This document shows, one piece after another, positions 12,040 to 59,365 of a DNA stretch of 64,000 nt. Below the pieces are notes generated by a model. The model did no database searches. It was not told where the DNA came from and saw only the letters and a list, made by a program, of their open reading frames with translations. The translations under genes were made by a program, and so were the position numbers. Numbering within the stretch: position 1 is the stretch's first letter; each line of letters begins with the position of its first letter. Source of the stretch: Chytriomyces cf. hyalinus JEL632. Lineage: Eukaryota; Chytridiomycota; Chytridiomycetes; Chytridiales; Chytriomycetaceae. The DNA is taken from assembly GCA_025435555.1 (NCBI GenBank), contig JAIWWG010000053.1:62001-126000 (forward strand). The letters are read 5' to 3'.

Positions 12040-12400
12040 CTAGTGTCGTACTTCGTAATCATCTCCTTCGAACGCGTTTTCGATTCCGTCCAGCACGATA
12101 AAGACTGGGCCCGCGACTTTTGTGATCCTCTTGTAATCTTTTGCGACCATTGAGGAGGAATGATGAGCATTGGTTCTGTTGTGTTGTTGTTGAAAACTTG
12201 ATATGGACTGTGTGGCAGCTGCAAACTGTTTGCTGGAGTGGATTTCTTTTTGTCGCATTCGGCCAGCTGATCTCTGATGTGTCCTTGCGTGCACTGTCAG
12301 CAATTGGAATCATCCATTCTTGCCCACTTTTAGAAACTGCTCGTATAAAGTTTGCATCTTGAATGTCTTGGAGCTTCGCTACTGCAGCTGTTGTGTTGCT
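12040..12400 (-). pseudogene. Crinkler-type NTPase fragment C
   Basis: A short degenerate copy just upstream of EF-Ts. In shifted frames it carries the LQLPHSPYQVF equivalent of the CSCH.V.V.F block, a PMLIIPP block, a KRITKVAGPVFIVLDGIENA Walker-B-like strand and AFEGDDYEVRH, after which the copy breaks off at the EF-Ts 5' flank. At least one frame change separates the blocks. It is most similar to the neighbouring fragment at 12481-12909, so it is probably the far end of a tandem duplication. Confidence 0.55.
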
Positions 12401-12480
12401 GGAGCACGTGCTTTGATAGCTTCGTTCATTTTTGCACGCACAAATGCTGCCGGCAGCCGTCCACTTTTGGGCAACGCAGC

Positions 12481-12909
12481 CTAATTCAGCATGCATTGCA
12501 GAGACTGGGAGAGTGATAGAGTGAGACAGTACGTTAAAAATTCAACCGTTTGAATTTGTATCCGCCCAGAATGCTGGTAGGTTGCAGTGAAACATCGATC
12601 CAGAACAACGAAGACTTCTTTTGGCAAATAGAGCCAGTTCCCCACAATCTTCTTGCAAAACAAGATAAATCGGTCTCGCCCTTCGAATTCATCCCCTTCG
12701 AAAGCGTTTCCAATTTCGTCCAGCACAATGTAGACGGGGCCGGCAACTTTCGTGAAATCGTTCAAGAAGTCATCAACCCTCTTATAGTCGTTTGCCAGCA
12801 GTGAAGGAGGAGTGATAAACATTGATTCCAAAGCCTCTTTCAGGTGCGCCAACATTGCCGAGTTGAACGAGTCTTGATTCAATGCCCCCTTTCGAAACTT
12901 GACATACAT
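12481..12909 (-). pseudogene. Crinkler-type NTPase fragment B
   Basis: A 142-codon open frame containing the blocks SMFITPPSLLANDYKRVDDF, NDFTKVAGPVYIVLDEIGNA (Walker B with LDEIG), FEGDEFEGRDRFILFCKKIV and LPKEVFVVLDR. It then loses similarity. The upstream part (CSSF.., at 12900-13080) lies in another frame. No Walker A, header or effector domain is attached, so this is a domain-sized fragment rather than a complete gene. The matching copies are at 220-650, 12040-12400 and 13389-13790. Confidence 0.55.
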
Positions 12910-13189
12910 TGTATGGCAGCTACAAAGAGTTTGTTGGAATGGATTCTTTTTCGTTGCGTCACGCCACGACTCTCTTGATCGGTTAATGTACTGGCTGCTG
13001 ATTTCTGATTTGCCATCAAAACACGGGCTTCAGCGATACAATACCTGCAGTCGCGAAACTTCAAGATATTCAAGAATCCAACTTTATACGAGCCGTTTCA
13101 AAAAGTGGGGACGACTAGATGATCCCAATTGCGGATACTGCGCGCAAGGGTCGTGGACTACCGCAACAAAACACGTTTTCTGGTAAGTT

Positions 13190-13335
13190 CGCAGATGCTG
13201 TACACCTTGTGTCTTGTTGTGCACCCGGAGTCCCTTCTGGATGAGCGATACGGCCTTGGGTGCTGTTGATTTAAAGCGGCGATGTGAAGTGTTTTGGGAC
13301 GTTGATCGAAACGCTGGTAATATTTTCCTCTCGTT
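13190..13335 (-). pseudogene. Duplicated EF-Ts presequence exon
   Basis: Read on the minus strand, this stretch encodes AFRSTSQNTSHRRFKSTAPK and then AVSLIQKGLRVHNKTQG. It lines up with exon 1 of mitochondrial EF-Ts (SALRSVSQQSYLRFYSTSPK, then AESLAQLVARLRKETQG). The start methionine region is not preserved and the frame does not continue into an EF-Ts core. The copy lies between two NTPase fragments in the same orientation, so the duplicated unit probably consisted of an NTPase piece plus the EF-Ts leader. Confidence 0.65.
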
Positions 13336-13388
13336 TACAAAAACCACCAACAAATCAGCAACCCCACAAAAGCACACACACAAGAATA

Positions 13389-13880
13389 CTACCACTGCAA
13401 CTGATCCTGATCTTGACCTGGATTTAACCTCTCAAAGTGGAATCTGATGCCTCTCATGGGGATGTCAGCAGGTTGTCGGCCAACATTATTGATGACAGAA
13501 GTGCGTCCAAGTACAACAAAGAACACGTTCGGCAATGCAAACCAGTGACTGAGAATTTTCTTGCAAAACAACAGAAACTGGTGTCGCACTTTCAAGTCGT
13601 TCCCTACAAACGCGCTTTCAATTCCGTCAAGTACAATGTAAACAGAACCCGCGACTTGTGTTAAATCCTCCAAAAAGTCCTCGACAGTCTCATACTCGTT
13701 TGAAAGCATTAAAAATGGAGAGATGAACATTGGTTTCTGAGCGGCTTTCAGGTACTTTATCATTGTAGAGTTGAAGGAGCCTTCAATCAACGGCTGTGTT
13801 GCAGTAAACTGGACACGGACGTTGTGACAGCTGCAAAGAGTGCGTTTGAATGGATCTCGAGTGGTTGCGTCCCATGACTC
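13389..13880 (-). pseudogene. Crinkler-type NTPase fragment A (best preserved)
   Basis: The best-preserved of the four related fragments. The open frame from 13790 reads IEGSFNSTMIKYLKAAQKPM, FISPFLMLSNEYETVEDFLE, DLTQVAGSVYIVLDGIESAF, HQFLLFCKKILSHWFALPNV, FFVVLGRTS and then MRGIRFHFERLNPGQ. Upstream, to about 13880, another frame carries SWDATTRDPF and LCSCHNVRVQF. The order of blocks fits the second half of a STAND-like/Crinkler NTPase (Walker B, then sensor strand FVVLGR). No ATG, Walker A or effector domain is present. Confidence 0.55.
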
Positions 13881-16155: not shown

Positions 16156-16430
16156 CTGGGATTAGTTGGTGCACGGTGTGAGTTAAAAATGTCCAAAGGG
16201 ATAAAGTTAGTTCGTGGTGATTAAGTTTGTTGTATATTCAAATAGACATAATAAAGCTGATAGAGAAACTGGGTTATAAGAATAGATTAAGTGATATTTG
16301 GTGCAGAATAAATGCGAATGGGTTCAAGAATTGGAGTGGCGGACCAGTACGGATGATTCGAAAGGTATTCGAAACTTTTTCTGCGCAACAGCGTTCCACC
16401 GTATTTCTGGACTTGAGTTTGGAAACGCGT
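16150..16430. repeat. Segmental duplication, copy 2 (paired with 14890-15130)
   Basis: The first half repeats the end and 3' flank of the membrane-protein gene, now with stops. The second half is the 3' end of WOPR gene 1. The relation to 14890-15130 shows that the boundary between the two genes was duplicated as a block. Confidence 0.6.
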
Positions 16431-17538
16431 CGATAAATAGTCAGAACGCGCTTCATACGGCTGGGGATGGGAATGTTGTGGGAATGGGGGTGGATTGAAA
16501 TGTGATGTGTTTTGAAGGATCGAAAGCCGCCGATTGTGTGTGTGCGTGTTTGATTGATTTGAAGGTATTCGAGGTTGAGAGAATGAAACAGGTTGGTTCA
16601 TGATTGACGATCTTCTTTGTTGTATTGAATGAAACACGGGCGAACTTGGAGACATGACTGCCAAAGGCGGTGTCGCATCCCTTGAATTCGCTGGCTCCAG
16701 AGGGTGATTGTAGTACCGCCGCAGTGACGCATCTTGCCTCGGAGTATGCAACACTGCGTGATTGTTGGAGTTTATTGATGAAATAGTGTCGTAATGGTGT
16801 TGCACGTGGTTTGGATAAAAGTAATTGATGAGCCTAAATTTTGTGCCGCAGCTTCCTTCGACAGTCATTGTTCGTTTTGCAAGTCCGCCTGGAATGAGTT
16901 GTGTGTTTGGACGTACGCTTCTGAGAATGAATTCGCTGTTTTCGAGGATTTGAGGGGGTGTGTTGTTGTGGGAATATTGTGGGATTGGTTCGACTTCGCT
17001 AAAAAAAAACGATTTTGGTATTTTCAGTGTTATGTTGTTTGATAAAGCACAGGCATGAGATGCCTACCGGTACAGTAGAAATGATCCGGATATGCGCGAA
17101 TAAGACCAGTTGAGTCCATCTGGTTGAAAAACGTCGTTTTTCATTATGATGAGGAAGCAAAACACAACTACAGCAGTACCACGAGCACAACTAACCTCTC
17201 CACCGCATTTTCTCCACTTTCGCAGTCTTTTCAGCAAACACGAGCACAGTCCCGCTTCGAATCCTGACACCGCTCATCATGACGGGGAAGTTGTTGACGG
17301 CGAGCAACTGTCCGGCGACGACTGATTCCACGATGCATTTTGCATCAGCGTGGTCTTTTATGAAGCCGGTCCATGTTTCTGAGGATTGGATGATGCGTGG
17401 GGTTGGTTGGCGTGTGTAGGTGTGAGTTATGGGGGTTTGGAGGTGTGGTTGTTGGCGTGGTTGGGGTGGGTGGGGAAGTGGTTGTTGATGGCGGTTTGTG
17501 TGAGAATGGCGGCGGTGTGGGTGGGCGTATGGATGCAT
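16287..17538 (-). CDS. WOPR-domain (Gti1/Pac2) regulator 1
   Basis: A WOPR-family DNA-binding protein (Wor1/Ryp1/Gti1/Pac2 type), expected to act in the nucleus as a transcription regulator. I read three exons: 17196-17538, 17068-17119 and 16287-16998. The N-terminal WOPR half has SETWTGFIKDHADAKCIVES, then VRIRSGTVLVFAEKT, then RWRG/DGLNWSYSRISGSFLLYR. The second half has NTQLIPGGLAKRTMTVEG and FRLINYFYPNHVQHHYD. The start is the ATG at 17538, before a His/Pro/Gln-rich leader. The C-terminus ends with KYGGTLLRRKSFEYL and NHPYWSATPILEPI, a version of the tail motif shared in this array. Introns fall after RWR and after LLYR. Confidence 0.85.
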
Positions 17539-17786
17539 TTTCGGTGCATGGATGGATGGTACCGGAATAAGGAAGTGTATGAAATTTCAAAGTGCTTGAA
17601 AGCTGGTCCTTGTTTTTCATGATGAAATGACACTGACAAAACAGGGAAAATGTAAATGTAAATTGCTATATTGGAAATGTGGGGTGAACCCACTTGCCAA
17701 GTCTGTGCCAAGTCAGATTTTTGATACGGAATATTTGCGTTTGAGGAAAGTATTTACAAATATATTTTAGATCAGTGGACATTGCA

Positions 17787-18428
17787 TTAGTTGAGGATAA
17801 ACTGCAATTGCATCTTGGACGCATTCGTACTTCTGATGCGTCTGATGGGTGGTGCATCCACTGCTACCTTACATGCGTGAACACTCTGCGACACAGTCTC
17901 CAATTTCAAACAATCCCAGCGTGAATACAACCCAGGTCGATGGTACGCAATGACTCTGTACCGACACCCATCACTCCCTCGCACTGACACTGTGCGCTTC
18001 ACAAGTCCGTCTTTCATGACTCGCATTGATACTTGTCCTGTTGACGATTGTATCTCTTCAACTTCCCGATAAGTTAAAAACCCCGCTTTGATCCGCGACG
18101 ACGTCCAATTCAACGCGTCTCGCCATCGCTGCTTTGAAGCGGTTTCTTTGAATACGATTACACTCCCGCTGCGGATTGTTGTGCCGCGTGTCACCGACCG
18201 GATTGCCGCGAAATCAGAGACTGGTGACAACAACCCTGCGATGACTGCTTCAACGCATAGTGCGGCGTCTTGGTGCGTTTCAATGATGCCGTGCCAGGTT
18301 TCTGTTGCCAGGATTGTTTGCGTTGATGGTTGTGGCTCCGGTGTTTGGAAGGGGCTGCTGGGAGACTGAGAGGGTAAAGGGGATATTGGGGTGCGTGGTG
18401 TGTGCCCGGATTGGTGGTACATGTGCAT
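17787..18428 (-). CDS. WOPR-domain (Gti1/Pac2) regulator 2, intronless
   Basis: A 213-codon single-exon gene with a complete WOPR domain: TETWHGIIETHQDAALCVEA, TTIRSGSVIVFKETASKQRW, RDALNWTSSRIKAGFLTYRE, then MKDGLVKRTVSVRGSDGCRY and RVIAYH. The start is ATG 18428 (MHMYHQSGHTPRTP), with a Ser/Pro-rich leader. Unlike its neighbours it has no introns at the RWR or LYR positions. It lacks the tail motif: after the domain the sequence turns into unrelated residues and stops at 17787. It may be a shortened but intact copy. Nuclear DNA binding is inferred from the family. Confidence 0.82.
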   Translation of the reverse strand: MHMYHQSGHTPRTPISPLPSQSPSSPFQTPEPQPSTQTILATETWHGIIETHQDAALCVEAVIAGLLSPVSDFAAIRSVTRGTTIRSGSVIVFKETASKQRWRDALNWTSSRIKAGFLTYREVEEIQSSTGQVSMRVMKDGLVKRTVSVRGSDGCRYRVIAYHRPGLYSRWDCLKLETVSQSVHACKVAVDAPPIRRIRSTNASKMQLQFILN

Positions 18429-20431
18429 TGTGTATTGGGAGATGGTTCTGAGTTACGCAAATGGTGCGTTTTGTTTTATTGACATGATTTTCCGCGTGCG
18501 GATAATTTGTTGATGAAATTCCGCACATACTTTTTCATGGGGCGATTATTGGTTCATTTACTCGGTGAGCTATTTCCGCAGTCTCCAAAGAAATGAAGTG
18601 ATCTTCGAAAATGAAAATGATGGTTGGATGCATCGGAATGTGTAGGACGAAAAGATGGTGTCTTTAAAATCTGACAAACAAGCAAGCAGGGCGCATGCAC
18701 GTTGCCGACACAAGTGACTTGAATCGAAAGGAGAACACAGGGTTCGATTCTGGCTCCTTCCCATTCCAAAACGATCTTGTTTGCTTATGCGCCATGTCTG
18801 GGTTCTCATGAATCAACCGAACCCCCTCACCGCTGTGTCTCTCTGGCAGCTCCGCCCACCTCAACCGCGGCAAATCGGCTCGCTCGCAACGAACTTACAC
18901 CATCCGAGCGCGTATCTCTGCTGCTGAACAAGTGAGTGAAGTTTGCGCCAAAATGAAGTTGATATTCTAAAAATACACCCAACAAGCAGGACACATGGGT
19001 TGTTGAGAACAGCGACCCTTCTCTTGAGAGGACTTTCGAAATCCGATCCATCACGCCGCATTTTCGAAGAGGACTTCAATTTATGTCTGTCGAAACTGGA
19101 ACTGGAAATGTACTTTTCGATCTCCATGCCCAGGTCCCCACCTGTTCATATTTGCGTGCCTGACCGTCGCAAATACTTATCGCATCAGCATCTCATCAAT
19201 TACGCGATCGATTCAGCCGGTGCGTCAAGCCGAAATGGACTATCTGAGTTCTCCAGCAACAAAGGGCCCGCCGCATATCTCTCGAATCAGCGATCAGCAG
19301 CCACCCCGCTCTCAGAACCATCAATATGCAGTTGAAGCATTATTCTGGGGCCCCTGTTTTGCCATCGAATCACAGCAGAAATGAGCGTGACACCGTCAAC
19401 TGCCTCGCGGAACCTTGTTGCGGACAAGAAAACACGCAAGTGCTTCTTCAACCAAAACCACACCAGCAGCCTCCCGTAACCTTCTTCTGCGCCGAAATCT
19501 GTATCCCACCTCATTACAGCATCCAGCGATTCATCACTCTGCGTCCCAGCAAACTCTCGCATCACCACCACCACTACCGCTACAAAAAAAGGTGTTCGTC
19601 GAGGAAAGTGTAGTGGAAGGGGAGGGTGGTCACCAGATGGGTGCATTTGCTGGACTCCACAAGCGGTGGGTGCACTGTTACTGGTTGCCGGTTGGTTTCG
19701 CGCTGCGGACGATTTTGCGGACGAGGAAAAAAAGTGGCCGAATTTGAAGCAGTAAAAGGGTTTTTGGAGAGTGCAGAAAAGCTATGTAAGGTTTGTTTTT
19801 TGCTTTTGGTTTCACATCACTGATTTGAAAATGTGGATGTTATTAATGCACAGCGTTTATAGAGACATCGTTGTAGGCCGCTGAAGAAAGCGTAGTACTC
19901 AGCAAAATAGAATCGCCAGCAATTATGATGTGGTGGAACAAAACTCGCAGCTGTGATCATGGCGAAAAAAACAAACAGGAACCAGCGAATTTTTTTCAAT
20001 CTTCACAATGAAGACTCAACATCAACCATGGATAAGAGCGCAGGATCAAGAGTACGCGAAAAGTGCAGTGACAATGATAACATATGTCGACGTTGGCGCT
20101 TCAAATGCGGTGCATGCGCAAGGATTTTGCCAAAAGGATCGCGAAATGAAGGCTCCCAGACAGAGGTAAGGGACCATAGAAATCTGCAGCTCTTTTGCAA
20201 GAAGCTTCATTTAAAGTGAGCACAACGCAATCAGCTGGTTGCACTCCCTTCCTTGCAAAATCAAAAAATAGTAATAAAAAACTTTGAATGACCTGAAACT
20301 GTGAACTTGATATCCTACTTTTGCCTTTTCCCGTAGTTTTTGTGTTGATAAGTTCTGGGCAATGACTTCTTCAATATTATCAAGGGCAGGTGATTTTGAC
20401 CCTTTGTCTGTTCTTTTCGGATCTCACCATG
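18429..20431. other. Degenerate region, possible small gene at 18830-19335
   Basis: About 2 kb with no firm gene. A possible plus-strand gene joins a first exon ending PSERVSLLLNK (about 18845-18930) through a GTGAGT..AG intron to THGLLRTATLLLRGLSKSDP and on to a stop at 19335 (ending PLSEPSICS). Residue use is plausible, but nothing is recognised and other frames are equally open. A second plus-strand frame at 19953-20219 (88 codons, with a Cys-containing block RFKCGACARI) also has no support. I treat the interval as accessory or decaying sequence separating WOPR genes 2 and 3. Confidence 0.3.
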
Positions 20432-20980
20432 TCACCAAACTGCACTGATTTGTACTGACCAAACTTTTGGTGTACTAAAGAATGCTGGAAGGGCATGACA
20501 TGGTCCTCTTGAAACCAGGAACTGGTCTTGAAACCGTTTCAAAAACATCCACTCAAACACAGTTGAATTATCAGCTGATACACGCGACACACTGCCAACA
20601 TGCTGCAAGAATTCTCTGAATGGAAACATGAAGCTCTTAAGAAACTGCTTCAGCCTTAGAGAAATTCTCAAACGAGCATTGTCAACTCGGCCCTCCCAAG
20701 CAAATGACGAATTTGAAGCGATGATGGCAAGTGGCACGGTTTCCTGGCAAGCATCAAGCACTTCAGTTGTCAGATCCACTGCATCACCAGACTCTGCATT
20801 CAGCAAAAGCTTGTACACTTCATTCTTGTTGTACATGATCTTCTCCCGGAAGAGTTTCAAATCTGGAAACAACCAATCAAATGCAATCTGATGAAGCAGA
20901 TTTGGGCAGATGCCAGACAGTCTTGCTACCAAATAAAATAAAGGAGGAACAAAGTCCTTCAGAATTCGTGATTCCAGCAC
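20432..20980 (-). CDS. Hypothetical protein
   Basis: A 182-codon single frame starting MLESRILKDFVPPLFYLVAR. It is predicted mostly helical, with blocks such as LLHQIAFDWLFPDLKLFREK, EVYKLLLNAESGDAVDLTTE, LRISLRLKQFLKSFMFPFRE and VFEWMFLKRFQDQFL. The opposite strand is interrupted, which favours this frame. The Asn-Ala-Glu-Ser-Gly-Asp block and helix spacing faintly recall ankyrin- or HEAT-like helices, but no family can be named. It may be a fragment of a larger protein, since it lies in a decayed stretch between WOPR genes. Confidence 0.4.
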   Translation of the reverse strand: MLESRILKDFVPPLFYLVARLSGICPNLLHQIAFDWLFPDLKLFREKIMYNKNEVYKLLLNAESGDAVDLTTEVLDACQETVPLAIIASNSSFAWEGRVDNARLRISLRLKQFLKSFMFPFREFLQHVGSVSRVSADNSTVFEWMFLKRFQDQFLVSRGPCHALPAFFSTPKVWSVQISAVW

Positions 20981-21267
20981 ATCTTGCAGTGGAGTGTTTT
21001 GATTGATTTTGATAGGATGGCCGCCTGTCTATTTGTTTATGTACTCTGCTTGCACGCAACAGAGTCCTACTTCAATAGTAGTTTGTACTGCATGAGTGCA
21101 TATTCTCACACGCGCGTGTGATAACAGATTGTTTCAGGGTGTTCAATATCCTTGCTCAAAGTCAACTGACTTGGCTTTTTAATAAATTTCCTTCTTTGGT
21201 AAACATAACCAACAGCGCGTCTCCATACATCCAATCAGTCAAAAAGGGTATAAAATTGCGAGCATTT

Positions 21268-22020
21268 TCAAAACTTGTTTGCTTTGTCCAACGGCGCCAG
21301 CGTAACTGGAAAGTCCGTCCAGTTTGGGTATTTCCTGAAAAATAAAGACGCTGCGCGAATTCCTGTACCTCCAAAGCGCAGCGAGTCTGTTTCAAATTTG
21401 TGGAGCTGCATGGACCAATCAGATCCGGATGGAGTGATGGGAGATACCAACGATTCCGCGCCCCGGGATACCAAATCTTGAAACTCTTGAGCCTGCGAAG
21501 GCGTTTGAAGGAACCCTTGGTGCTGCATTTTCCGACTATACAAGTGCTCCACATCGTTTGGATAAAAGTACGAAATCACGCGAAACTTTTCGCCCGTCTT
21601 CTGCGCCGTGAGTGTGATGGTTCTCTTTGCGAGGCCGTTTGGAATCAAGCGCGTGTTTCCGCGTACACTTGTTGTGATGAATAGGGATGACTTTTCGCGT
21701 TGTACGGTGTGGTTCTTTGATGGAGTTGATACGGGTTCTACTTGTCGGTATAACAGGAATGCACCGCTGATGCGGCTGGAGGACCATGAGAAGGAGTCAC
21801 GCCAGCGAGTCTTTTGGGCCGGGGTTGTGCTGGTATCTTGGAGAATGATTACGCTGCCGCTGCGGATTTCCAAGGTGCTGGTGGATGAGGAGAGTTCTCG
21901 GATGGGTGTGAGGAGGTTTGCGGCGCATGCGTCGACGAGGATTTGAGCGTCCTTTTTTTCTTTGATGAAGCCGAACCAGGTTTCGTGGATGGACTTATTG
22001 AGTTGTTGGTGGGATATCAT
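21268..22020 (-). CDS. WOPR-domain (Gti1/Pac2) regulator 3, intronless
   Basis: A 250-residue single-exon WOPR protein. Start ATG 22020 (MISHQQLNKSIHETWFGFIK). The domain runs through DAQILVDACAANLLTPIREL, LEIRSGSVIILQDTS, TRWRDSFSWSSSRISGAFLL, YRQVEPVS, then NTRLIPNGLAKRTITLTAQK and FRVISYFYPNDVEHLYSRKM. The C-terminus carries SLRFGGTGIRAASLFFRKYP followed by NWTDFPVTLAPLDKA, a clear copy of the array's tail motif. No introns at the positions used by genes 1 and 4-8. This is the cleanest member of the array and divergent to SEC63. Function as a nuclear regulator is inferred from the family. Confidence 0.88.
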   Translation of the reverse strand: MISHQQLNKSIHETWFGFIKEKKDAQILVDACAANLLTPIRELSSSTSTLEIRSGSVIILQDTSTTPAQKTRWRDSFSWSSSRISGAFLLYRQVEPVSTPSKNHTVQREKSSLFITTSVRGNTRLIPNGLAKRTITLTAQKTGEKFRVISYFYPNDVEHLYSRKMQHQGFLQTPSQAQEFQDLVSRGAESLVSPITPSGSDWSMQLHKFETDSLRFGGTGIRAASLFFRKYPNWTDFPVTLAPLDKANKF

Positions 22021-22253
22021 TGTTGCGGTGGGAATAATTGGAGAAAGTGGGGGTTGGTCTCATTGGGGTTTTATACGGTGCGCATTGAATGTTTCGAAAC
22101 TGTTTCAGAAGTTGGTGTTTCGAGATGGATCAGAAGTTTCAGAATGGTTCCAGAACGCGCATCATCAAAACAAAAGAAAGCTTGAGATTTCTGTTTCACA
22201 TGCTGTTTGGTTTAAAACGTGTCAATATATCTACAAATAAAAAAATAAATAAA

Positions 22254-24879
22254 ATGGGCGCATACGAATACGACGACAACGGGACAATCTTCAACTACTT
22301 TGTCATCTCATTCTTGTCGCTTGTGCTTGTCCCGGCCACCTACTCGGTGCTCTCTGCAAAGAAGGGTCAGACTGCGGGTACGGAGGGTCATGTGCGAGGT
22401 AATCATTCAAAGTCACCCCTTTACTTGGAGTTCCCAATTTAACATTTATCCAGGACTCCCCGAATGCCCGTGCGATGGATGCAAGTTGAAACGGGACCGT
22501 GTCGCTCGACGAAAGGTTGCTGAGAAGGGATTCGTATCTGCAAAGTAATTACTTTTTGATCTTGATCCATCTTGTCGATGGTTGTTGTTGTTTGCGTGTC
22601 TGACTGACTGATTGGATGAATGGGATGCATTCATGTTCTTTGGGTTTTTCAGATCTCTTCTTCTCATTGTTGGATGGCTCGTTTTCGCTGCGGTTGCGTA
22701 CCAAACTGCGACAACAAAGATTGCAGACGCTGGGCTCTGGGATCCTTACGAAATCTTGGGTGTCTCGACGGTAAAAACATTCATTCTTAAACCTTGCATT
22801 TCGTCCATCTCATTCATTATTGTTTCCACAGAGCGCCACAGCAAGCGAAGTCAAAAAGGCATTCAGAAAGCTATCCCTCAAATACCACCCCGACAAGGTG
22901 ACGGAAGAGTCTGAAAAGGAAGCTGCTGCCGTTGTTTACAATGATTTGGCCAAAGCTCAAAAAGTGTTGACGGACGATGAAGCGAGAAAGACATGGGATG
23001 AATTTGGACATCCCGATGGGCGGCAAGGTAATTTCTTTTTGATTTTTGTATGTTAGGGGGGTTGTGATTATTGACTTTTTTTTGTGAATTTCGCGAAAAC
23101 AGCACTTCAACTTGGAATTGCGTTACCAAAATATCTGGTCGAATCGAAAAACAACATGATGGTGTTGTTTGTATACGGATCCGTGTTTGGAATCCTGATG
23201 CCTCTTTTGGTTGCAAAATGGTGGTACACGTCAAAAAACATGAACAATGATAAAATCAGCCATGAAACGATGGGAACGTTGTATAAGGAGGTGAAGGATC
23301 AAATGCGTATTAATAGTTGAGTGGGCGCGTTGATTTGTTGATGTATTGTCTTGTTGCTAATTTTTTTTTTTCGAATAGCGCTTTTGGATGTTGTGTTCAA
23401 GGCGGATGATTTGTTGGATGCTGTCACGTATAGTAAATCGGAGAAGGCGGTTTTGGAATCGCTTGGGGATCAAGTTTCTGCCGAAATTGGAAAATACGGA
23501 ATTATTTTTGAATCGCGAAAGAAGGTACTTTTTTCTTGGGTAACCGAACTTGTTCGTCTGATCACATCTGCGTTTTTTGTTTGGCAGTACATTAAAGTGG
23601 AAGATGCACTTCTCCACAAGGTCCAAATTCTTTTGTTTTCGCACTTTTGCCGCTTCCAATTGCCCGACCCCAAATTGGCTGCCGAACAAGCGCTTGTTGC
23701 AGAACGCGCGGCGTTGGTTGTTGTTGGGATTTTGCAGATTTGCGCGGCGCGATTTTGGCTTGCTCCTGCCATTGCAGCGATTGAATTGAGACAGGTAATT
23801 GTATTGACACTGAGGAGAATATCATTTTGCTCAAGGTTTTAAAAAACTTGTTTTTTTGGGCAGTCTATTGTTCAAGCCGTGATTCCAACCAAGGGACCTT
23901 TGGGCCAACTTCCGCATGTTACCCTGGAAACGTTGAAGCACTTTGTCACCTTGAAGGTTAGAACCGGCCTTTTCAGTGCGCGTGAATCCAGCGATATAGC
24001 TTCCTCATGCGCATTCTATACTTTGCAGAAACGAACAACATGTCCTCGTGAGATTGTCGAGTTGGACGATGAGGTCCGGAAAGAGGCGTTTAGTATCATG
24101 CCAAGTCAGCATGCGGATGAGATGAGTAAAGTTGCAGAGCAGTATCCCATTGTGCGGATTAATAAGGCGAACTTTGCGGGTTTGTTTTTGATTCTGTTTT
24201 GTTATGCAATCGAAAGGAGTTTTTCAATGAATTTTGGTTTGTCGATATAGTTGCGGGTGAAGAATTCATTACTCCTGGCTCGATTGTGACATTGACGGTC
24301 CAATTGGAGCATATTACCCCATCTGAAGCCCGCCGCGAAAAGCGTGAGGGTGTGATCCCAGTAGACGTGACACCACCAACCGTCGCCGAATCCGAAGTCA
24401 AACCACCGACCTGGTTCGACAAGCAAGGCCTCGAACCTTTCCCAACGCACTGCCCATACTTCCCGACAGAAAAAAGCAGTTCCTGGTGGGTTCTCATGGG
24501 CAACCTTGAAAACAACCGATTGATTAGTCTTGGAAAAGTGAGCAACGCGGGTCCACCCGGTGCCCAACCGCAAACCTGTAAACTACAATTCCAAGCGCCC
24601 CCGAACGCTGGTTCATGGAAATTTTACGTATTCGTCAAGAATGATTGCAACATGGGATGTGACTTGACGATTGAAATGACGTTGACTGTGATTGATGCGC
24701 CTGAATTGAGTGCTGAAATTATTGAGGATGATATTAGTGAGCCTGGGGAGGATACGATTGCTGGGCAGATGGCTGCGATCAAGAGTGGGAAGGTTCCCGG
24801 GGAGAGCGTAAAGGGTGCAAAGGGTGTGAGGGATGATGTGGATGATTCTTCGGATAGTGATGATAGTGATAGCGATTAA
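22254..24879 (+). CDS. SEC63: ER translocon J-domain protein Sec63
   Basis: Sec63 is the ER-membrane J-protein that recruits Kar2/BiP to the Sec61 channel for protein import. From ATG 22254 (MGAYEYDDNGTIFNYFVISF) I read multiple exons: TM1 (FNYFVISFLSLVLVPATYSV), TM2 (SLLLIVGWLVFAAVAYQT), the J domain with DPYEILGVST, KAFRKLSLKYHPDKVTEE (HPD present) and WDEFGHPDG, TM3 (VLFVYGSVFGILMPLLVA), then the helical Sec63/Brl region and the FN3-like C-terminal part (SWWVLMGNLENNRLISLGKV; GSWKFYVFVKNDCNMGCDLT). It ends in an acidic Ser/Asp tail, typical of Sec63 and a target of CK2 in yeast. It is the only plus-strand gene inside the WOPR array. Confidence 0.93.
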
Positions 24880-25860
24880 GCGAGACGGAGTTTTGTTTTT
24901 TTGAGTGGGATTGTTTTGATTCAAAATACAAGTGTTTGAAGTGGTAAAAAAAAGCAAGTCGGTGATATTGAACACACTGAAACAATTTGTTCTCACACGC
25001 GGGTGTGGGAATATGCACTCTTGCAGTAAAAAACTGCTATCTGAGTAGAAGTCTGTTAGCTGGTAGCAGTGCACGTAAACAATCAGTCAACCAACCAACC
25101 AACCAACCAATCACAATCAACCAACCAATCACAATCAACCAACCAACCAACCAACCAACCAATCACAATCAAGCAATTGGCTTTTGAAAGAAGCTTATCA
25201 AAATATTGATAAAGTCGTTGTCCTGAACATATCGACACCACCGTGCTTGCTGCCTTTTTTGATGTTCACGGCAATTTGTCCAGAATTGTTGACAACATTT
25301 GCTGAAAAGGCGGAAGTGGAAAATCAAGACATCCTTTCAACAGTTTCGGTCCATGTGAGTGTGTGTCTGTGTGGGTATGTATGTGATGTGGGCGACATTG
25401 AGATTAAAAAAGATTTTTACTTTTGCCTGGGCATCCATCACAGTAAAATCGTTTTAGGCGTTGAGTGTTTACAAATTTATGTTGATCTGATTCAAACGAT
25501 TCTATTCATCTTCTGATGAACATTTTATATTTATTTTATTCACATTTTACTTTTTCAAAACAAATCAATGGCGCCAAATGCACAGGCTGCATCAGCCCAA
25601 CACTCGTTGCGGTTCGTTGCCGTTGGGTACGAAATTGATGGCATAGCTTAATGGATGTGTACAGATGGATGGATGGATGGATGCGGTATGTGTGTATGCC
25701 CTGCGTTTTGGGGCTGAGGATGGTTGAAAAAACTTGCAGGTGCAAAGCAACATCTTTCCTGGGGAGACCCGTTCAAAAAAACAAATAACGCGCCCAGATT
25801 TTGTCTCCGCATCCCATAATTTCGAACTGTTTTTTATTACAAAAGAAGCGTATAAGGAGA
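24880..25860. other. Intergenic, repeat-bearing
   Basis: Nearly 1 kb without a supported gene between the SEC63 stop and the WOPR gene 4 stop. It holds the AACC repeat at 25082-25175 and a short GGAT run near 25662-25682. A 110-codon plus frame at 25184-25516 reads through low-information sequence and matches nothing I recognise. Confidence 0.4.
25082..25175. repeat. Tetranucleotide (AACC) satellite with interruptions
   Basis: Blocks of the 4-base unit AACC are separated by a recurring AATCACAATC spacer, giving a higher-order pattern over about 90 bases. Confidence 0.9.
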
Positions 25861-27081
25861 TTACATGAAACGCAACGGTGGTAACATGACGGGTGAATCA
25901 ACCCACTGCGGATTATTTTTAAAATACTGCATTGTTTCTTTCATCCCAGATCCACCGTATCGTCCGCCTTCTTGTGTAAAACGTTGTAGAAGGAAAGTTT
26001 GTTCGAGGGAAATTGGTTTCATTGCGTTGGACCAGTGTTGTGAAGATTTGTCTGGATGAACGCGAGGCGGTGACGGTGCTTGTTGCATACAGATTTTTTG
26101 TTGGTATCGTTGGAATGCGGGGATTCGAGAAGGGACGGGGAAGTGTGCATGTTGTTGTTGTTGTTGTTGTTGTTGTTGTGGAGATGTAGGTTTGTTGTAT
26201 AGGTATTCAACGTCGTTTGGGTAAAAGTAGGATATCACGCGATACCTTTTTTTTTTTTTTTTTTTTTTGAAATTGAATCAGCGTAACAGTTTTTTTTCGC
26301 GTGTGAAAAAGATTTAAGGACAAACCGATTCCCATCACTCCCACGTAAAGTAATGGTCCGTTTGGCCATTCCATTGGGTATCAGTTTTGTGTTGGGTTTC
26401 GCGGCAGCTTGTGAAAAGAGTTGGGTTGTTTCGCTTTGTGGATGGATTGTGCGTGATGTTGTCGGTTCGACTTCTCGATACAAGAGAAACGCGCCGTGAA
26501 TGCGCGATGAGCTCCCTGTTATTTGTGTAAATATAATATTTTAATTACAAATGCATAAATATTTTACAAACAAAAGGGAAACCCTAATTGAATGGGTGGA
26601 AATTTCTTTTCTTTACATGCCCATCCGTCTCTCCAGCGCATTCTAAGCGATTGTGCGGAAGACTCTGCATATATACCGAATGAGTTTTTAGTTAACTGTG
26701 CTTGTATGGATGGATATCAAAAGTCACCTGCAAACACAACGACACTGCCAGACCGAAGTGGCAGCGTGTTGAAGCCAAAGGGAATGTCTTTTACGGGTGC
26801 ATGCATTCCTGCGATGCAGCTCTCAATGAGGAGGGAGGCGTCAAGCGTGTCCTAAGGGGTGATGGTGAGTTTGAGTGGGGTGTGTGTTTGAATCTGGCGG
26901 CTGCTTGGGTGGGATGGGAGCATGCCTTGATGAAGCCGTAGAATGTCTCTGTGAATGGATCTGGGTGGGTGTTGCGTCTGTGAATGCGCGGGTTCAGCAT
27001 CTGTGTGTGTGTGCAGTTTCTTTGATATCTTTTTTCAGAGGGGGGGGGTGAGTGTCCCCAATCCATGTCTCTTGGCCCCAA
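25861..27081 (-). CDS. WOPR-domain (Gti1/Pac2) regulator 4
   Basis: A WOPR protein in about five exons. The first exon contains HTQMLNPRIHRRNTH and TETFYGFIK. The next starts DTLDASLLIESCIAGMHAPV and holds LPLRSGSVVVFA. Then come ESSAQSLRMRWRDGWA|W, SSSRIHGAFLLYREVEPTTS, KPNTKLIPNGMAKRTITLRG and, after an intron with a long A/T run, YRVISYFYPNDVEYLYNKP. A polyglutamine run follows (about 26150-26178), and the C-terminus ends with GRYGGSGMKETMQYFKNNPQ and WVDSPVMLPPLRFM. The intron after FIK appears to use a GC donor (GCATGC), at the position where gene 7 has a normal GT. The tryptophan codon of DGWAW is split by an intron. The start codon is uncertain (27081 or a later Met). Confidence 0.78.
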
Positions 27082-27367
27082 TTAAGAGCACATGGGAGGG
27101 GTCGCAAAGAAAAAAATTGAAAAGAAAAAGAAAAATTTATGGTGAGATTTTAGGGTTTGTTTAATCTGTATTAATTGGGGGGGGGGGGTCTCTTTTGGAG
27201 GGTATGTTTGAAATGGTATGGATTGAATTTGTGGGGGGGGTGGCTGGGATTGAATGCGGGGGTTGATTGAATATGTGGGGGTGGATAAGTCATGCATGCT
27301 TGGGATTTGGGGCAGTGGATGGTAAGAACTTGGAGCACGGCTCATCCATCCTCATCCCATCATCATC

Positions 27368-28193
27368 TCACGCCATTCGAATCGGAGCCAGGATTGCTGG
27401 TTCAAGAAGCCAGAACGGGTTAAACTGCGTGCGTGCGAGAGTCTTCTCGCTTGGAGGCGTGGTATTTCTCATGTTGCGTGTAGTAGTATTCCCTGTTGTT
27501 GTCTTGGTCAAGAATCTGAAGCGATGGTCTTGTGATGGCAGTTTGAATGCATCGAAGGCCGTAGAAGGATGACACGTCTTGTGCCGTAAAGTATGAAATG
27601 ACGCGGTAGAATCTTCCATTCGAGCCTGTTTTAAAAACAAAAAAAAGAGGTTCAAAAATGTTGCGTGCTTGAATGGGATAAACGCAAGTTGACTCACCGC
27701 GGATGGAGATGGTTCGTTTGCATAGCCCGTCGCGCATGATGCGAGTGTTTGGGCGGAGTGATGATGGTGTGATGGAAAACTGGGAGACTGGTTGTTGTTG
27801 ATTCTGTTCGTGATCGTGATGATGCATTTGTTTCTTTGATGACACTCGTTCGACTTGACGGTATAAAAGAAATGGGTGGCAGAGTTTTGACGAGGACCAT
27901 GAGAAGCCGTCTGTATTGGTTGAGAGAGAGATGGATGGATGGGATGGATGTGAGAAAAGAAAAAAGAAGAGAAGAAAACAAAGGATTTTTTTACCTCTCC
28001 AACGCGTACGCATGAAATCCGACTTGTAATACTCGACAAACACGACAACACTCCCCGATCGAATACGTGAGAATTCAGTGCTCAGCGGGTACTCGGACAC
28101 TGCGTCAATGCATCCTGCAATGGCTGCCTCGACTAAAAGACGCGCGCACTCAGCATCTTTGACGAATCCGAACCATGACTCGATTTGGGGCAT
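27368..28193 (-). CDS. WOPR-domain (Gti1/Pac2) regulator 5, tail in a second frame
   Basis: Start ATG 28193 (MPQIESWFGFVKDAECARLL). The WOPR domain runs AAIAGCIDAVSEYP, SRIRSGSVVVFVEYYKSDFM, RTRWR, an intron (about 27910-27995), DGFSWSSSKLCHPFLLYRQV, then NTRIMRDGLCKRTISIRG, an intron (about 27629-27699), and GRFYRVISYFTAQDVSSFYG. The main frame stops at 27420 after REDSRTHAV. The shared tail motif is present but in the next frame (FNPFWLLEPAILAPIRMA, ending 27368). So either a small indel or an unrecognised splice near 27430-27480 separates domain and tail. The rest of the gene is intact. Function inferred from the family. Confidence 0.75.
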
Positions 28194-28722
28194 TTTGTGT
28201 GTGTGTGTGTTTTGTGCTTTGACTTGTTGGAGCAGAAGAAAATTGGGCGGTCTCTGATGTGCTGCTTTAATTCTCAAAGCGAGTGCCCGTGAGTGCATAT
28301 ACAGAAAATGAAGAATTTTATTCACGTGACACGCGGTGCAAATCTTATTCTTGTATCCAGTCATTCTGAGTCACTTTGGAATTGGAGTGCATGCTGTGTG
28401 ACTCATTCTATAACGTTATGCGTTTCATGTTCGAATCTAACTTGCAACGTTTGGCTGGGGATTCCAGAAATTGCGTAACCGTGACTGGAATACTTTACCA
28501 TCAGTTGACAAGCCGCAATTTTCCGTTTCGTCACTTGACATTTATTTATGCCGTAAAATTCACTTAAATCCTTTGCGTAAATCCAGGATTAGTTTTGATG
28601 GAGATATCACGAAACCTTGAGTTTTGGTTAAAACGCGTGGAGTGTTTCTGTGCTGTTTTTTGATCTGTTGAATACATTTGTTTCTTGGACCGCGGTAAAT
28701 GTGTGCATGCAGTATATTCGGG
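28194..28722. other. Intergenic between WOPR genes 5 and 6
   Basis: About 530 bases with no supported gene. It should hold the promoter of gene 5 (right of 28193), including a (TG)n run at 28196-28210. Nothing else specific is seen. Confidence 0.4.
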
Positions 28723-29881
28723 TTATGGAACAAATGGGGTAGCGCGCGCGCTCTTTTTTTTTTTATTGAATGAGTCTTCTAACCAACTCCGATCCAGTTT
28801 AAAATAGTCAAATGCAGACAAGTTGTTGAGTCCACCACATGGACAACAACATTTCTTTACTGGCGGTGCTGAATGATGGATTGATAGCGGTTCAAAATTG
28901 GGTGTTGGAAGACAGCCGTGTAAATGCCGTGGGAGTTGATACCAATTGGTGTACGCTACGATGGGTGATGTTTGTGAGGGAGATTGTTGTTGTTGGAGAT
29001 GCAGGTTAAAGTTGTTGCGAGTGTAAACGCTGTTCATTTCCTCGACGCGGGCTTCGTAGCGGAAAAATTCGGGTAAATGTGAAGGAGTGGGAAGTATGCA
29101 TCGGGAGCGTTTTCCCTTTTTGTAGTGGTCTTGGACGTCTGTTGGGAAAAAGTAGCTGATGACGCGGTATCTGCGTTTTTTTAATGTGTTTTAGAATTTA
29201 ATTTTGTGTTTCTTTTTTGGAAGTAGTGTGCGTAAGTGCCGCTCTTGTGGGGGCTGTGCTGTTGTTTTTTTGGGTTTTACCTGTTGTTGTCGGATCCATC
29301 CACGCTGATGGTTCGCTTTGCCAAGCCGTTGGGTACCAGATGTGTGCCTTGGCGCAAACTAAGGCCGGAGAAGAGGGACGTGTCTTCTTTGGTTTGGTCA
29401 ACAAAGTGGTCGGATTTTGCAACTTCCCTGTGTGTGTATGACAAATATTTGAGACACTTTTCAAAAATGCACAAATAGTGGTTTTTGCGATTCGATGCAT
29501 ACCGGTATAGAAGGAACGAGCCGCATAGTTTTGAAGAGGACCTTGGGTGTAATTTAAAAGTTGTTTAGCCGAGAGAGGGACGGCGTTTCACTTTTTTTTT
29601 TGATAGGTTTTTACACAAAAATCAAGTGTTTTGTTTTACCATTGCCGGCCGTCACGCCATCGCATGCGCATGGATGCAGAAGACCCAGTAACTCCCGAAC
29701 AAGCGCTTTCCTGCAGAACCACGACAGACCCGGATCGAATGCGCAACGAGGAGCCTGAGATGCTAATATCCCGCACTGGGTGGAGCATGCCTTGGACACA
29801 GCTTTCGACAAGGAGTTGGGCGTCGAGGCTGTCGCGGATGTAGCCGTGGAATGTTTCGATGGATGTGTTCTTGTGTATCAT
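28723..29881 (-). CDS. WOPR-domain (Gti1/Pac2) regulator 6
   Basis: Start ATG 29881 (MIHKNTSIETFHGYIRDSLD). Exon 1 carries AQLLVESCVQGMLHPVRDIS and LRIRSGSVVVLQESA, ending SMRMRWRDGRQ. After an intron comes PRSSSKLCGSFLLYR, an intron at the LYR position, then EVAKSDHFVDQTKED, GTHLVPNGLAKRTISVDGSD, an intron, and YRVISYFFPTDVQDHYKKGK. The C-terminal region has a Cys-rich insert (KKCCCPCGGL) and ends with FDYFKLDRSWLEDSFNKKKK, a weakened form of the tail motif, then a basic end. Intron positions match those of genes 1, 4, 5 and 7. Nuclear role inferred from the family. Confidence 0.78.
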
Positions 29882-30428
29882 GGCTATGAAGAGGAGGAAG
29901 AGAGGGGGGGGGGGAAGGATGGGATGGGAGGGAAATTGGGATTTGTTGGTTACTTTTTAAAAATTTGTTTGCCGTCGGAGCGAGTGCGATTAAATTGAAA
30001 AATTTGATGGAATTTTTATTAATGTGAGCGGCTAGTGTGCGCTGATTATGTGGTTGGGGTCCAGCCACGCAACATTGGCGCCGCTCTTTTGTATGGATGG
30101 GTTGTTTGTTTGCATGGATGGGTTACCTCTTTTGCAAGGGGTGGTTACTTGCAAGCATGGTCTCGTCGAAAGGGTACAGCTGATTAATTTCAAAGAAATT
30201 GTGGCTGGTATCCACTTTATGTGTTCCGAGTTGGCGTACTCGACAGCGTATATATTGCACCTTCATCTAACGTCTTCTCCGTCTCCCTCTCCGTCTCCCC
30301 ACCACCACCACCTCCTCTCCAAGACTCCTTCACTTCAGGTATTGCACATAAATCGAACCAAATTTCACCACCCCTCAAAAAAAAAAGAGCGCACTCACTC
30401 TAAAAACAACTTTTTAAAAAAAAAAAAT
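29882..30428. other. Intergenic between WOPR genes 6 and 7
   Basis: About 550 bases with no supported gene. It contains a G-run next to the gene 6 start, a short CCAT/TGGAT repeat around 30095-30125 and A-runs near 30410-30428. It is likely the gene 6 promoter plus the gene 7 3' region. Confidence 0.4.
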
Positions 30429-31542
30429 TCAAAACAATTTGATTTCACTGCTTGGCCGCAACGGGGCCAGAAGAACCGATTCACCTTTCCATCCACTTAA
30501 TCCACTCAAATTTATGTACACGCTTTCCAGTGGCACTACTACTTTCTTTGTTTCCTTTGTCCGTTGCATCACTGGGGTGCTAGAGACTTGAGGTGGTGTT
30601 GCGAGGCCAGATGGTGTCGCCGCGGCACTCGTGGATGGAATCGCGCGTGGTTTATGGAGACTCATGAGAATCATTTCGGGTTCAATGACTTCATTCTGCT
30701 GCTGCTGCTGCTGTTGTTGTTGTTGTTGTTGTACTGGTGTTGCCGGTGTAGTTGGGGTTGCTAGGTGTAGCCCTTTGAATTGGTGGAGTTCCGACAGCTC
30801 TGAGGGTCTTTTGAGTGTGCCACGGGCGGTTTGCTTGTAAATGTGGTCCACGTCGCGTGGGTGAAAGTAGGAAATGATGCGGTATCTGAATCCATCTGCT
30901 CCACGGAGAGAAATCGTTCGCTTTGCCAGGCCGTTTGGAATCAGTTTTGTGTTTGGTCGAACATTCTGGACGACAAAGTTGGAGTGGCGTTCCCGCTGCT
31001 GAGGAACTTGTGCGTTTGAATTTGCAACCTCGCTGTTTGGTGGATGGAATTCAGCGTTAAGAAAAAGATGTGTTTGGGGGTTGCATCGGGAACGTTGGAA
31101 CAAAAAAAAAAAAAGGGCTCCACCGGTACAACAAAAATTGTTGCGAGATTTTGGAGCATGACCACAAGATTCCGTCTGTTGTGCGCAAAAGTAAGGGGGA
31201 TCGATCAGAGAGATAACTAATGACCTGGGGGGCAAGATGGATCGGGTGGTTACCTCGCCATCGAACTCGCATGGATTCCGAGTTTTCGCAAAATACAACG
31301 ACGCTGCCGCTGCGGATGGGTTCAGTGCGGCTTCCTGCGAGGGGCATGTCGCCAATGACTGGGAGTGCGCCTTGGACGCATGCGTTGACTAGGATTTGGG
31401 CGTCTTCGGGGTCCTGAGTGTTTTGATTTGGTTGTTAGAGTGTGGGTTAAGGCGGTTTAATGTGTGTGTTTTGTGTGTATACCTTGACGAAGCCGTAGAA
31501 GGTCTCGATGGATTTGAGGGGTTCTTCTTCTTCTTGCTGCAT
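30429..31542 (-). CDS. WOPR-domain (Gti1/Pac2) regulator 7
   Basis: Start proposed at ATG 31542 (MQQEEEEPLKSIETFYGFVK); an upstream in-frame ATG at 31662 is possible. The intron after FVK uses GTATAC. Then come DPEDAQILVNACVQGALPVI, EPIRSGSVVVFCENSESMRV, RWR, an intron, TDGILWSCSKISQQFLLYR, an intron with a long A/T run, EVANSNAQVPQQRERHSNFV, NTKLIPNGLAKRTISLRGAD and YRIISYFHPRDVDHIYKQTA. A polyglutamine run encoded by a CAG/CAA tract lies at about 30694-30732. The protein ends with GLSGWKGESVLLAPLRPS, a version of the tail motif. It is a complete WOPR domain in four exons. Function inferred from the family. Confidence 0.82.
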
Positions 31543-31949
31543 GGGAAGGGTAGGGGGGAGGGGGAGGGTAGTGGGTAGTTGGTTGGGTTGGGTTGGAGTG
31601 TCCGACGGGGAAGGGGAAAGAAGAAGAAAAAAGAAAAGGTGGTGGAGATGGCATTCACGCACTTTAAGCGGAAAATTTTAGTGTTGCGTTGGTTGGGGAT
31701 TAAAATGATTTGTAAACATATTTTATTTTGTCGCTGTTTCGGACATTCTATCAGATTCTACAGTGTTCTACGGCATTCTATTGATACTCTGCTCTTGTTG
31801 CTGTTGTCGCAGAGACTGTTTGCCATCCCCCCCACGTCTGGCACCCCCCCAATTTAATTGGACCAGAATGCCCAGTCTTATTGTCTATTTAAAAAACCCA
31901 TGTTTTTATTATTACTGCTATATACCCACAAATTCAATATTCTCTCTTT
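31543..31949. other. Intergenic between WOPR genes 7 and 8
   Basis: About 400 bases of purine/pyrimidine-skewed sequence (GGGGA-rich near 31550-31620, then AT-rich). No gene supported. Probably the gene 7 promoter and gene 8 3' end. Confidence 0.4.
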
Positions 31950-33121
31950 TCATTCGCCCTTTTGTCGATTCGATATCGGCGCAAGCGTCACTGGAAACTC
32001 GGTCCAGAACGGATTCGTTTCAAAGTAGTTGAAATGCCGCTTTGATCCCAACCCGCCGCATTCGCAGTCAGATCCAGATTCGTCCTTTACTTGGACTGTG
32101 GATCCATGGTTTGGAGAAGCGTGAAGATCTACAGATTGGGGTGTCGTGACTTTTGGAGATGCGTTCGATGGCGGCGAAGAATACATGGAATGCTTTTTTG
32201 AAATGGTTGTTGAGTGGATAAATTGATTGGACTGGTTTGATTGTGGATGGGTTGTTTCGACCAATTGTTTCTGTTGCTGCTGCTGCTGTTGAAATTGCGC
32301 TGCTGCTGCTTGAGCGTTTGTTGAATTTCGCAACAGCGCAGAGTACGAAAGATCGGGCATCGAAAATGGATGCAGTGGCCCCCTTTTCGAAAACCGCGAA
32401 TATTCAGGCATACTCGAAGGCGTTGAAAGGCCCGATGAATTTGCAACAGGATCTCCATACAAATGCTGGACATGGCTTGGATAAAAATACGAAATGACTC
32501 GGTATCGGTTTCCATCTGACCCGGACAGTGTCAATGTGCGTTTTGCGAGTCCGTTCGCAACGAAGCGGGTTTTCCCACGAACGACTGTGTTGACAAAGCG
32601 AATGTCTCGTTCGTTTTCGGTGTTTGTGCTTGCAGTTGTCGCGGATTCGACTTCGCGGTATAGGAGGAAGGGGCCTTGGAGGCGGGAGGCGGACCAGCGG
32701 CATCCATCCCTTTTTTTTTTAATTTTTTTATTTTTTAGTGCGAGTCAAAAATGCAAATCAACATGAAGAATGAATTTTACCTCCATCGAACCATTTGACC
32801 CAAGTTACTGTTTTCAGCAAATACAAGCACAGTCCCACTCCGGATCTGCAAATCAGACAGCGACATGGGCACCATGTTCAGTGGCTGCAGGATTCCCGCG
32901 ATACATGCCTCGATACACAGCTGTGCATCCAGTGGGTCCTTGATGAAGCCACGGAAAGTCTCTGTGAAACGACGGGACTGTGGGCGTGCGATAGATTGTT
33001 CAGAGTCTTGATGCGCTCGATTCGTTGGTGGGGATGATGTGGATCCACCGATGATGATATGGTCGTCGAATCCCTGCCAGGGTACTGCTTGTTGTTGCTG
33101 TTGGTGTTGTGTGGATGCCAT
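31950..33121 (-). CDS. WOPR-domain (Gti1/Pac2) regulator 8
   Basis: The rightmost array member. Start ATG 33121 (MASTQHQQQQQAVPWQGFDD). Exon 1 has RFTETFRGFIKDPLDAQLCI, EACIAGILQPLNMVPMS and LQIRSGTVLVFAENSN, ending at RW. One intron (about 32711-32780) follows, then DGCRWSASRLQGPFLLYREV, GKTRFVANGLAKRTLTLSGS and DGNRYRVISYFYPSHVQHLY. A long Gln/Ser-rich segment follows (polyQ at about 32268-32305). The C-terminus is HFNYFETNPFWTEFPVTLAP, then ISNRQKGE: the best-preserved copy of the tail motif with gene 3. Only the RWR intron is kept. Nuclear DNA-binding role inferred from the family. Confidence 0.85.
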
Positions 33122-33959
<838 letters not shown>

Positions 33960-58030: not shown

Positions 58031-58713
58031 TATAAATTCTAAACATTTGCTTTCCAACCATGTTTATGCTTGATCAGAGCAAGAATAGTTGAAATCATGT
58101 AATAGAATAAGCTATCGTCATCTACAAGTCTGCACCCTTTATAGAACACGAGGATTCGTGTATTCATTCCTTGTTATAGTATCTACTAGACGTTTACCCT
58201 ACTCAATGTCATAATTCATGCCCATTTGTATTGAGGTTGGTGGAATGGTGAGGTGCAGGACTCTTCTTTATCTGCAGTAGAGAATAAGAGATGAATTGGG
58301 GAGAATTAACCTTTATTGAAGTAAACAGTGCTCCATCACTTGAGACTGATATTCAACACAAATGGTGGTGGCACGCAGTACAAGGGTTTGTGACTTGAGG
58401 ACTAGGTGCTACAACGATGATTTTGGTCTAAGATGATGTTTATTTGCCTTGTGGAAGCTCTACCATTTATACCCTTTGGAATAGAACATGAAAGAATCAC
58501 TCATGGGTGGAAAATCGTGGGTATCTCCATGGTTTTCTATTTTTTCACGGTAGAAATTATGAAGAGCCGAGATGGAAATCCCCCGAACGTCCCCAAGGAC
58601 TGTTGGGCCTTTACCAATCCAAAAAGTTACGATTTGAATAAGAAACTATCCAACCAATGTCCAAAGTGCATATGACTGTATCCTTGGACCTCTGACGGGG
58701 ACTCTCCCACCTG

Positions 58714-58768
58714 GGTAGGGAGCCATGGGTCCAAGTGACGGTGTACAGGTAAGCAGCGCTGCCTGCTG
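58714..58768. repeat. 55-base direct repeat, copy B
   Basis: Near-identical to copy A at 57405-57459 and in the same orientation. Here it is not part of a recognisable CRN frame. Between the copies lie about 1.25 kb of AT-rich DNA with the tRNA-like unit. Confidence 0.9.
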
Positions 58769-59365
58769 TCCATGTACGTTTCAGCGTGTCAGTTTGACTG
58801 TGGTGTACTAACTTTGAACTTTGCTTATGCAAGATCTGGGTCCTCAAGTGCCACCTATCCAGGCTCAAACCTTTGTTTCAACTACACAAGGTATGTACTG
58901 GTGTGTTTCTGCCGAATGCTTGGTGTTGCAGGTAGTTTGGCTTAGTACTGTTGGTATTCTCTAGAGTGATAGAGTCTGACACCTTATGACGACTTGGTGA
59001 GGGTGTCATGTGATGGTGTGTTATCATGGTGGATCGTTTAAGGTCCCAACTTTGTGTAAATAAAGCTTTATTGGGGTCTTGGCAGTAATGCCTCACAACT
59101 TCTCATCCAGTGACCATAAATAGCCGTGGATGGCACATGGGTGCTTGTAGGACTTGGCAGATGTGCCAGAGACCGGTGTGTGTGATCGACGGTGTGTTAC
59201 CGTCCCCGTGGCTTGTCTATATTTACACGAAGTCGTGTGTATTTCACGTCTTTGTTACGTATGGGGTCTGCAGGTGCTCAAACACCTGTTTCCCACATCT
59301 TCATGCATTCCAGAGATTTTGAGCTCTCCTTTATGTTGAGTACATGAGGAGACCGCTGGTCCACC

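Follow-up and report, generated by a model that had tools for sequence, protein, structure and literature searches.

An array of WOPR genes

The stretch of DNA analysed here (the window, 64 kb, C192:62001-126000) belongs to the 37.8-Mb, 242-contig genome of the chytrid Chytriomyces cf. hyalinus JEL632 and carries an array of WOPR (Gti1/Pac2) transcription-factor genes. Both strands of the whole window were scanned with a spliced-profile aligner written for this analysis, the profile seeds of which included window sequences. Eight WOPR domains scoring 231-371 bits were found, every one of them on the minus strand. Nothing else in the window scored above 21, and in 76 control scans, run on reversed window and locus sequence, no score exceeded 19. 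None of the eight domains contained a stop in the refined models, and their introns were GT-AG, except for one GC-AG intron in gene D. The full-length spliced proteins all passed PF09729 (8/8, 75.4-96.1 bits against the curated cut-off of 23.6), with the best stretch extending over roughly the first 100 of the 168 profile positions. A plain six-frame PF09729 search gave nine exon matches and reached seven of the eight loci, missing gene D. An earlier note had called eight minus-strand WOPR genes here, each with both halves of the domain; this was borne out, and the outcome it named as fatal, a domain in fewer than five loci or mostly broken frames, did not occur. The genes were modelled as follows.

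Gene A, 16287..17538, minus strand: WOPR gene, exons 17538-17196, 17119-17068 and 16998-16287; PF09729 80.2 bits; loop RWRDGLNWSYSR; C-terminal tail WSATPILEPI
Gene B, 17787..18428, minus strand: WOPR gene, intronless, short linker, without C-terminal tail; PF09729 78.9 bits
Gene C, 21268..22020, minus strand: WOPR gene, intronless; PF09729 76.0 bits; matches PDB 4m8b and 4qtj by sequence; loop RWRDSFSWSSSR; C-terminal tail WTDFPVTLAPL
Gene D, 25861..27066, minus strand: WOPR gene, introns 26852-26925 (GC-AG), 26665-26727, 26516-26616 and 26246-26325; PF09729 77.1 bits; loop RWRDGWAWSSSR; C-terminal tail WVDSPVMLPPL
Gene E, 27420..28193, minus strand: WOPR gene, introns 27911-27994 and 27626-27697; PF09729 83.1 bits
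Gene F, 28723..29881, minus strand: WOPR gene, introns 29542-29639, 29428-29502 and 29171-29280; PF09729 75.4 bits; tail C.CGGL with a divergent end
Gene G, 30429..31542, minus strand: WOPR gene, introns 31414-31482, 31176-31253 and 31033-31123; PF09729 96.1 bits; loop RWRDGILWSCSK; C-terminal tail WKGESVLLAPL
Gene H, 31950..33121, minus strand: WOPR gene, intron 32710-32780; PF09729 90.6 bits; loop RWRDGCRWSASR; tail ECGGLG...WTEFPVTLAPI
SEC63-like gene, not WOPR, approximately 22249..24879, plus strand: PF02889 at 24166-24876, 26.3 bits (cut-off 25)

The gene order is A-B-C, then the plus-strand SEC63-like gene, then D-E-F-G-H. The eight had been described as a tandem row; they are same-strand neighbours, but the SEC63-like gene, present in three genome copies of 90-100% identity, breaks the row between C and D. 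The left end of 27368 given earlier for one gene was incorrect, since gene E ends at 27420 and 27368 closes an overlapping frame that carries its tail. The domain of gene E is intact. Just behind it, 20 nt of the C191 copy are absent, and the C-terminal tail is therefore out of frame, although a splice bridging the gap may keep it in frame.

All eight spliced-profile models span WOPRa, WOPRb and the variable linker, which is shortened in B. Outside support for the second half came from Pfam exon matches (A, E), the PDB alignment (C) and the fold (D), and for B, F, G and H this half rests on our own profile. A structure model of gene D has the WOPR fold, matching PDB 4m8b/4qtj/4qtk. The modelled protein of gene D equals the deposited P0007 letter for letter, and that of gene H is the same protein as P0022. 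Genes A and F share their domain with the deposited P0039 and P0078, respectively, but differ at the C-terminus, where the refined models assume no further introns. The boundaries of the gene F intron 29428-29502 were set by eye; the aligner read through it, whereas P0078 is spliced there.

A long GA/CT microsatellite (approximately 33560-33710), in which several frames read (ER)n or (SL)n, lies upstream of gene H. At 12283-13149 and 12602-13790, beside the array, lie an inverted repeat (138-nt arms, 81%) and a direct repeat (281 nt, 71%); a short part of this region, 12697-12768, is found again elsewhere in the genome, at 81-84% on several contigs.

Age of the array and relatives in other chytrids

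The tree was built from 149 domains of eleven labelled taxa, comprising 52 JEL632 models and 97 of 104 others (seven short ones were dropped); 22 database proteins of JEL632 were kept out as duplicates. The window genes were scattered across this tree. When seven of them (B was left out) were constrained to one clade in a quick tree, the constraint was rejected by the approximately unbiased (AU) test with p 0.0004. The nearest other window gene was 1.6-3.7 substitutions per site away, whereas C, D, F, G and H had orthologues in other species at 0.02-0.16. The clade of gene H (Shimodaira-Hasegawa-like approximate likelihood ratio test, SH-aLRT, 98) unites six genera: Chytriomyces, Physocladia, Podochytrium, Rhizoclosmatium, Siphonaria and Obelidium. 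Gene G groups with other Chytriomyces (support 100), its orthologues being in C. hyalinus, C. confervae and Chytriomyces sp. MP71; the adjoining Obelidium P0012 has support 0. Gene F groups with C. confervae (99) and Rhizoclosmatium (89), and genes C and D with other Chytriomyces (99). We conclude that the array consists of old paralogues, of which C, D, F, G and H have orthologues in other species. Gene A joins a C177/Rhizoclosmatium/Siphonaria/Obelidium set (support 79) at distances of about 2, compared with 2.16 to window gene G. The nearest outside relative of gene E is at 2.26, compared with 2.42 to an array mate, and the placement of gene B is unsupported.

By neighbouring locus tags, WOPR runs also occur in Siphonaria (HDU68_008339-8342), C. 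hyalinus (HDU81_001988/1989), C. confervae (g09123/g09124) and Rhizoclosmatium JEL0117 (HDU79_006180 to 6186, four listed), and ten Obelidium WOPR proteins lie on one 152,575-bp contig. The tallies per taxon are lower bounds from the listed proteins: at least 21 in Obelidium, 18 in Chytriomyces sp. MP71, 14 in Physocladia, 13 in C. confervae, 12 in Rhizoclosmatium JEL0117, 9 each in R. globosum and Siphonaria, 6 in Podochytrium, 5 in Entophlyctis luteolus and Entophlyctis sp. together and 2 in R. hyalinum, and likewise at least 20 in C. hyalinus (several strains) and 24 in JEL632 (clustered database).

Genome-wide count and homologous segments

A genome search with PF09729 gave 69 exon-level matches on 22 contigs. 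Modelling around them resulted in 53 loci, one of which is a fragment (C229_35k), leaving 52 domains; a degenerate locus on C174 (L051) was excluded. The 52 domains form 26 groups at 78% identity or more, of which C166_141k and C221_44k are probably one. This group (L041 and L035) is divergent, with very long branches; although no RWxDGxxWS frame of the usual kind could be recognised, the tail motif is present. The total should be read as a lower bound, since the first PF09729 search misses some genes, as it did gene D. It is also inflated, since the window region occurs in three segments and a few contig pairs are near-identical: the domain DNA of the copies on C104 and C222 does not differ at all, and that of the copies on C152 and C111 differs by one synonymous change. 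The earlier note was right on the WOPR family, the chytrid source and the eight intact domains of the window, a number far above the two WOPR genes of most fungal genomes given in the available text of PMC4917244. Its proposal of a local expansion was wrong in age and scale, given the rejected single clade, the orthologues of five genes elsewhere, the runs in other genera and the about 26 groups genome-wide.

The three segments are collinear and lie on C192, C229 and C5, the last apparently continued by C13. They are mostly 81-92% identical, with shorter pieces lower, and are nearly as different mutually as from C. hyalinus and C. confervae proteins. Their WOPR content is A B C D E F G H on C192, A C I K F G H on C5 and A, an inverted C fragment, I K J G H on C229. 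In the stretch of C191 that was seen, D and E are present, F is absent and G is broken by stops. The coding DNA of gene B had no match on the C5 or C229 segments, whereas pieces of the adjoining 18.4-19.4 kb did match. This difference in gene content between segments is birth-and-death under way. PF00562 was found at four loci, compared with nine for a full triplication, and two of the three PF00562 genes look single-copy. The genome may be hybrid or polyploid and have lost part of its heterozygosity, or the haplotypes may have been assembled separately.

The block of SEC63 and gene C is inverted on C229:32792-36103 (L033) relative to the window, and gene C is only a fragment there. A 1-kb element at 58358-59384, which is likely a young transposable element, recurs at 38 or more further places with 95-98% identity, one of them adjoining the C13 breakpoint.

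Interpretation of the array

In all eight window genes the RWxDGxxWSxSR loop keeps RW-x-D, W-(S/T) and S-(R/K). Variable positions are concentrated in and beside this loop, where the members of an orthologue group tend to have the same residues and different groups different ones. Most window genes also share a conserved C-terminal tail, often C.CGGLG followed by W, 4-8 residues and L-x-P-L, which is likely a cofactor or partner-binding element. The PGEKKRA nuclear signal was not seen on reading the eight window proteins; according to the available text of PMC4917244, Ros1 likewise lacks it, yet is nuclear.

The explanation that we favour, with some reserve, is an ancient WOPR transcription-factor array at the level of the order Chytridiales, which is kept by birth-and-death and whose paralogues have different target sets. 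Between the homologous segments, array copies are indeed gained, lost, inverted and broken. Each protein would be nuclear and bind promoters via its two interlocked WOPR halves, with the RW...WSxSR loop placed in the minor groove. The paralogues would then recognise sites that differ or overlap only in part and would thereby control different target sets, most probably in the life-cycle steps of zoospore, germling, rhizoid and sporangium, as single WOPR proteins do in Dikarya.

Several points weigh against this explanation. The DNA contacts assigned to the loop are carried over from the Wor1 and YHR177W structures rather than computed. In the gene D structure model, confidence is lower (66) in the block that directly precedes RW. 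The loop test was designed once the sequences had been inspected, and alignment is better in well-anchored columns than in those of the linker. Support is low for many deep branches of the tree. No enrichment of the Wor1 core site TTAAAGTTT was seen in the window (1 match, 0.80 expected; with one mismatch 17, 24.5 expected), which leaves autoregulation through this site without support; the counts neither show nor exclude binding to that core. Finally, decay of part of the array is possible, since B is without a tail, the tail frame of E is lost and the tail of F departs from the motif.

A dosage or redundancy array, in which one WOPR site serves all copies, only the timing of expression differs and the loop differences are neutral or tune affinity, is possible, but we consider it unlikely. 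It agrees with the almost invariant RW-D-W-S-S loop core and second-half G-x-x-K-R-T, and with the conservation of the WOPR site between distant fungi stated in the available text of PMC4567300. The clustering of the variable positions argues against it, and loop variants kept within orthologue groups across species are not expected under neutral drift.

That the cluster consists mostly of relics on the way to loss is improbable. The absent tail of B and the out-of-frame tail of E would fit such a decay, as would the C fragment on C229 and the broken G and missing F on C191. However, no domain contains a stop, and the ratio of nonsynonymous to synonymous change (dN/dS) in the domain is 0.02-0.20 in seven genes: 0.06-0.09 for A (compared with the C5 and C229 copies), 0.13 for C (C5 copy), 0.07 for D (C191 copy) and, compared with homologous copies, 0.11 for E, 0.20 for F, 0.02-0.03 for G and 0.05-0.09 for H. 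The C fragment on C229 (31 codons, no nonsynonymous change) was set aside, and gene B has no second copy and hence fell outside the comparison. The seven genes A, C, D, E, F, G and H are under purifying selection. The earlier note had regarded the copies as free to bind different targets; the paralogue-specific residues around the predicted DNA-reading loop are consistent with different targets, but the selection shows constraint.

Recent tandem amplification in this strain is suggested by eight neighbouring same-strand genes of one family and by gene B, which has no copy on the other segments, but the rejected single clade and the distances in the tree make it very improbable. For C, D, F, G and H it is contradicted. 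It could still hold for B, with its unsupported placement, and the test is weakest for A and E, for which the set contains no close relative from outside. Assembly inflation by separately assembled haplotypes or subgenomes is the most improbable of all: the three similar segments and the near-identical contig pairs likely make it a partial account of 52 loci versus 26 groups, but it is contradicted for the array, as it leaves eight different genes within one contig, the 26 groups and the 9-21 listed proteins in each of seven other named taxa unexplained.

The ancient array of diverged regulators can be extended to a speculative and rather doubtful proposal: Chytridiales may have swapped the one- or two-gene WOPR switch of other fungi for a partly clustered battery of at least 20 or so factors. 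Each would have a DNA-reading loop of its own, many would share a partner-binding tail, and jointly they would specify the successive cell states of the life cycle as a combinatorial identity code built from a single master-regulator family. What is new in this system is the genomic arrangement and the subfamily; the domain itself is known.

Comparison with known systems

In fungi such as Candida and Histoplasma, WOPR proteins act as master switches for morphology and virulence. The window genes share PF09729, the two halves, the loop and the fold with the WOPR/Gti1-Pac2 proteins Wor1, Ryp1, Mit1, Sge1, Ros1, OsaA and S. pombe Gti1 and Pac2, and Q-rich stretches with several WOPR proteins described in the available text of PMC4917244. 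In contrast to Wor1 and YHR177W, the SPSR proline is replaced in all eight window genes, and RWR is found instead of RWT. Unlike the usual two-gene fungi, JEL632 has 52 modelled loci in 26 groups and a clustered array, and most of the window genes carry the conserved C-terminal tail.

Merenyi et al. 2023 (PMC10406608) rank Gti1/Pac2 with the transcription-factor families that changed most dynamically early in fungal evolution; arrays, C-terminal tail and loop diversification are not described in the available text of that paper. No account of the array, tail or loop pattern was found in the open-licence literature, and the terms 'transcription factor', WOPR and Gti1 have 0 occurrences in the main text of the development atlas of a related species (PMC8887899), a paper that compares transcriptomes of chytrid development. 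The window genes are named candidate regulators of chytrid development. Since a clade has kept and diversified a whole array, its natural loop variants make the evolution of WOPR specificity directly testable.

The vertebrate KRAB zinc fingers are clustered and turn over fast, in birth-and-death arrays with paralogue-specific DNA-reading residues. The JEL632 WOPR array resembles them in both the birth-and-death of the array and the paralogue-specific residues predicted to read DNA. It differs from them in its domain, in the several orthologues kept across genera and in its low dN/dS.
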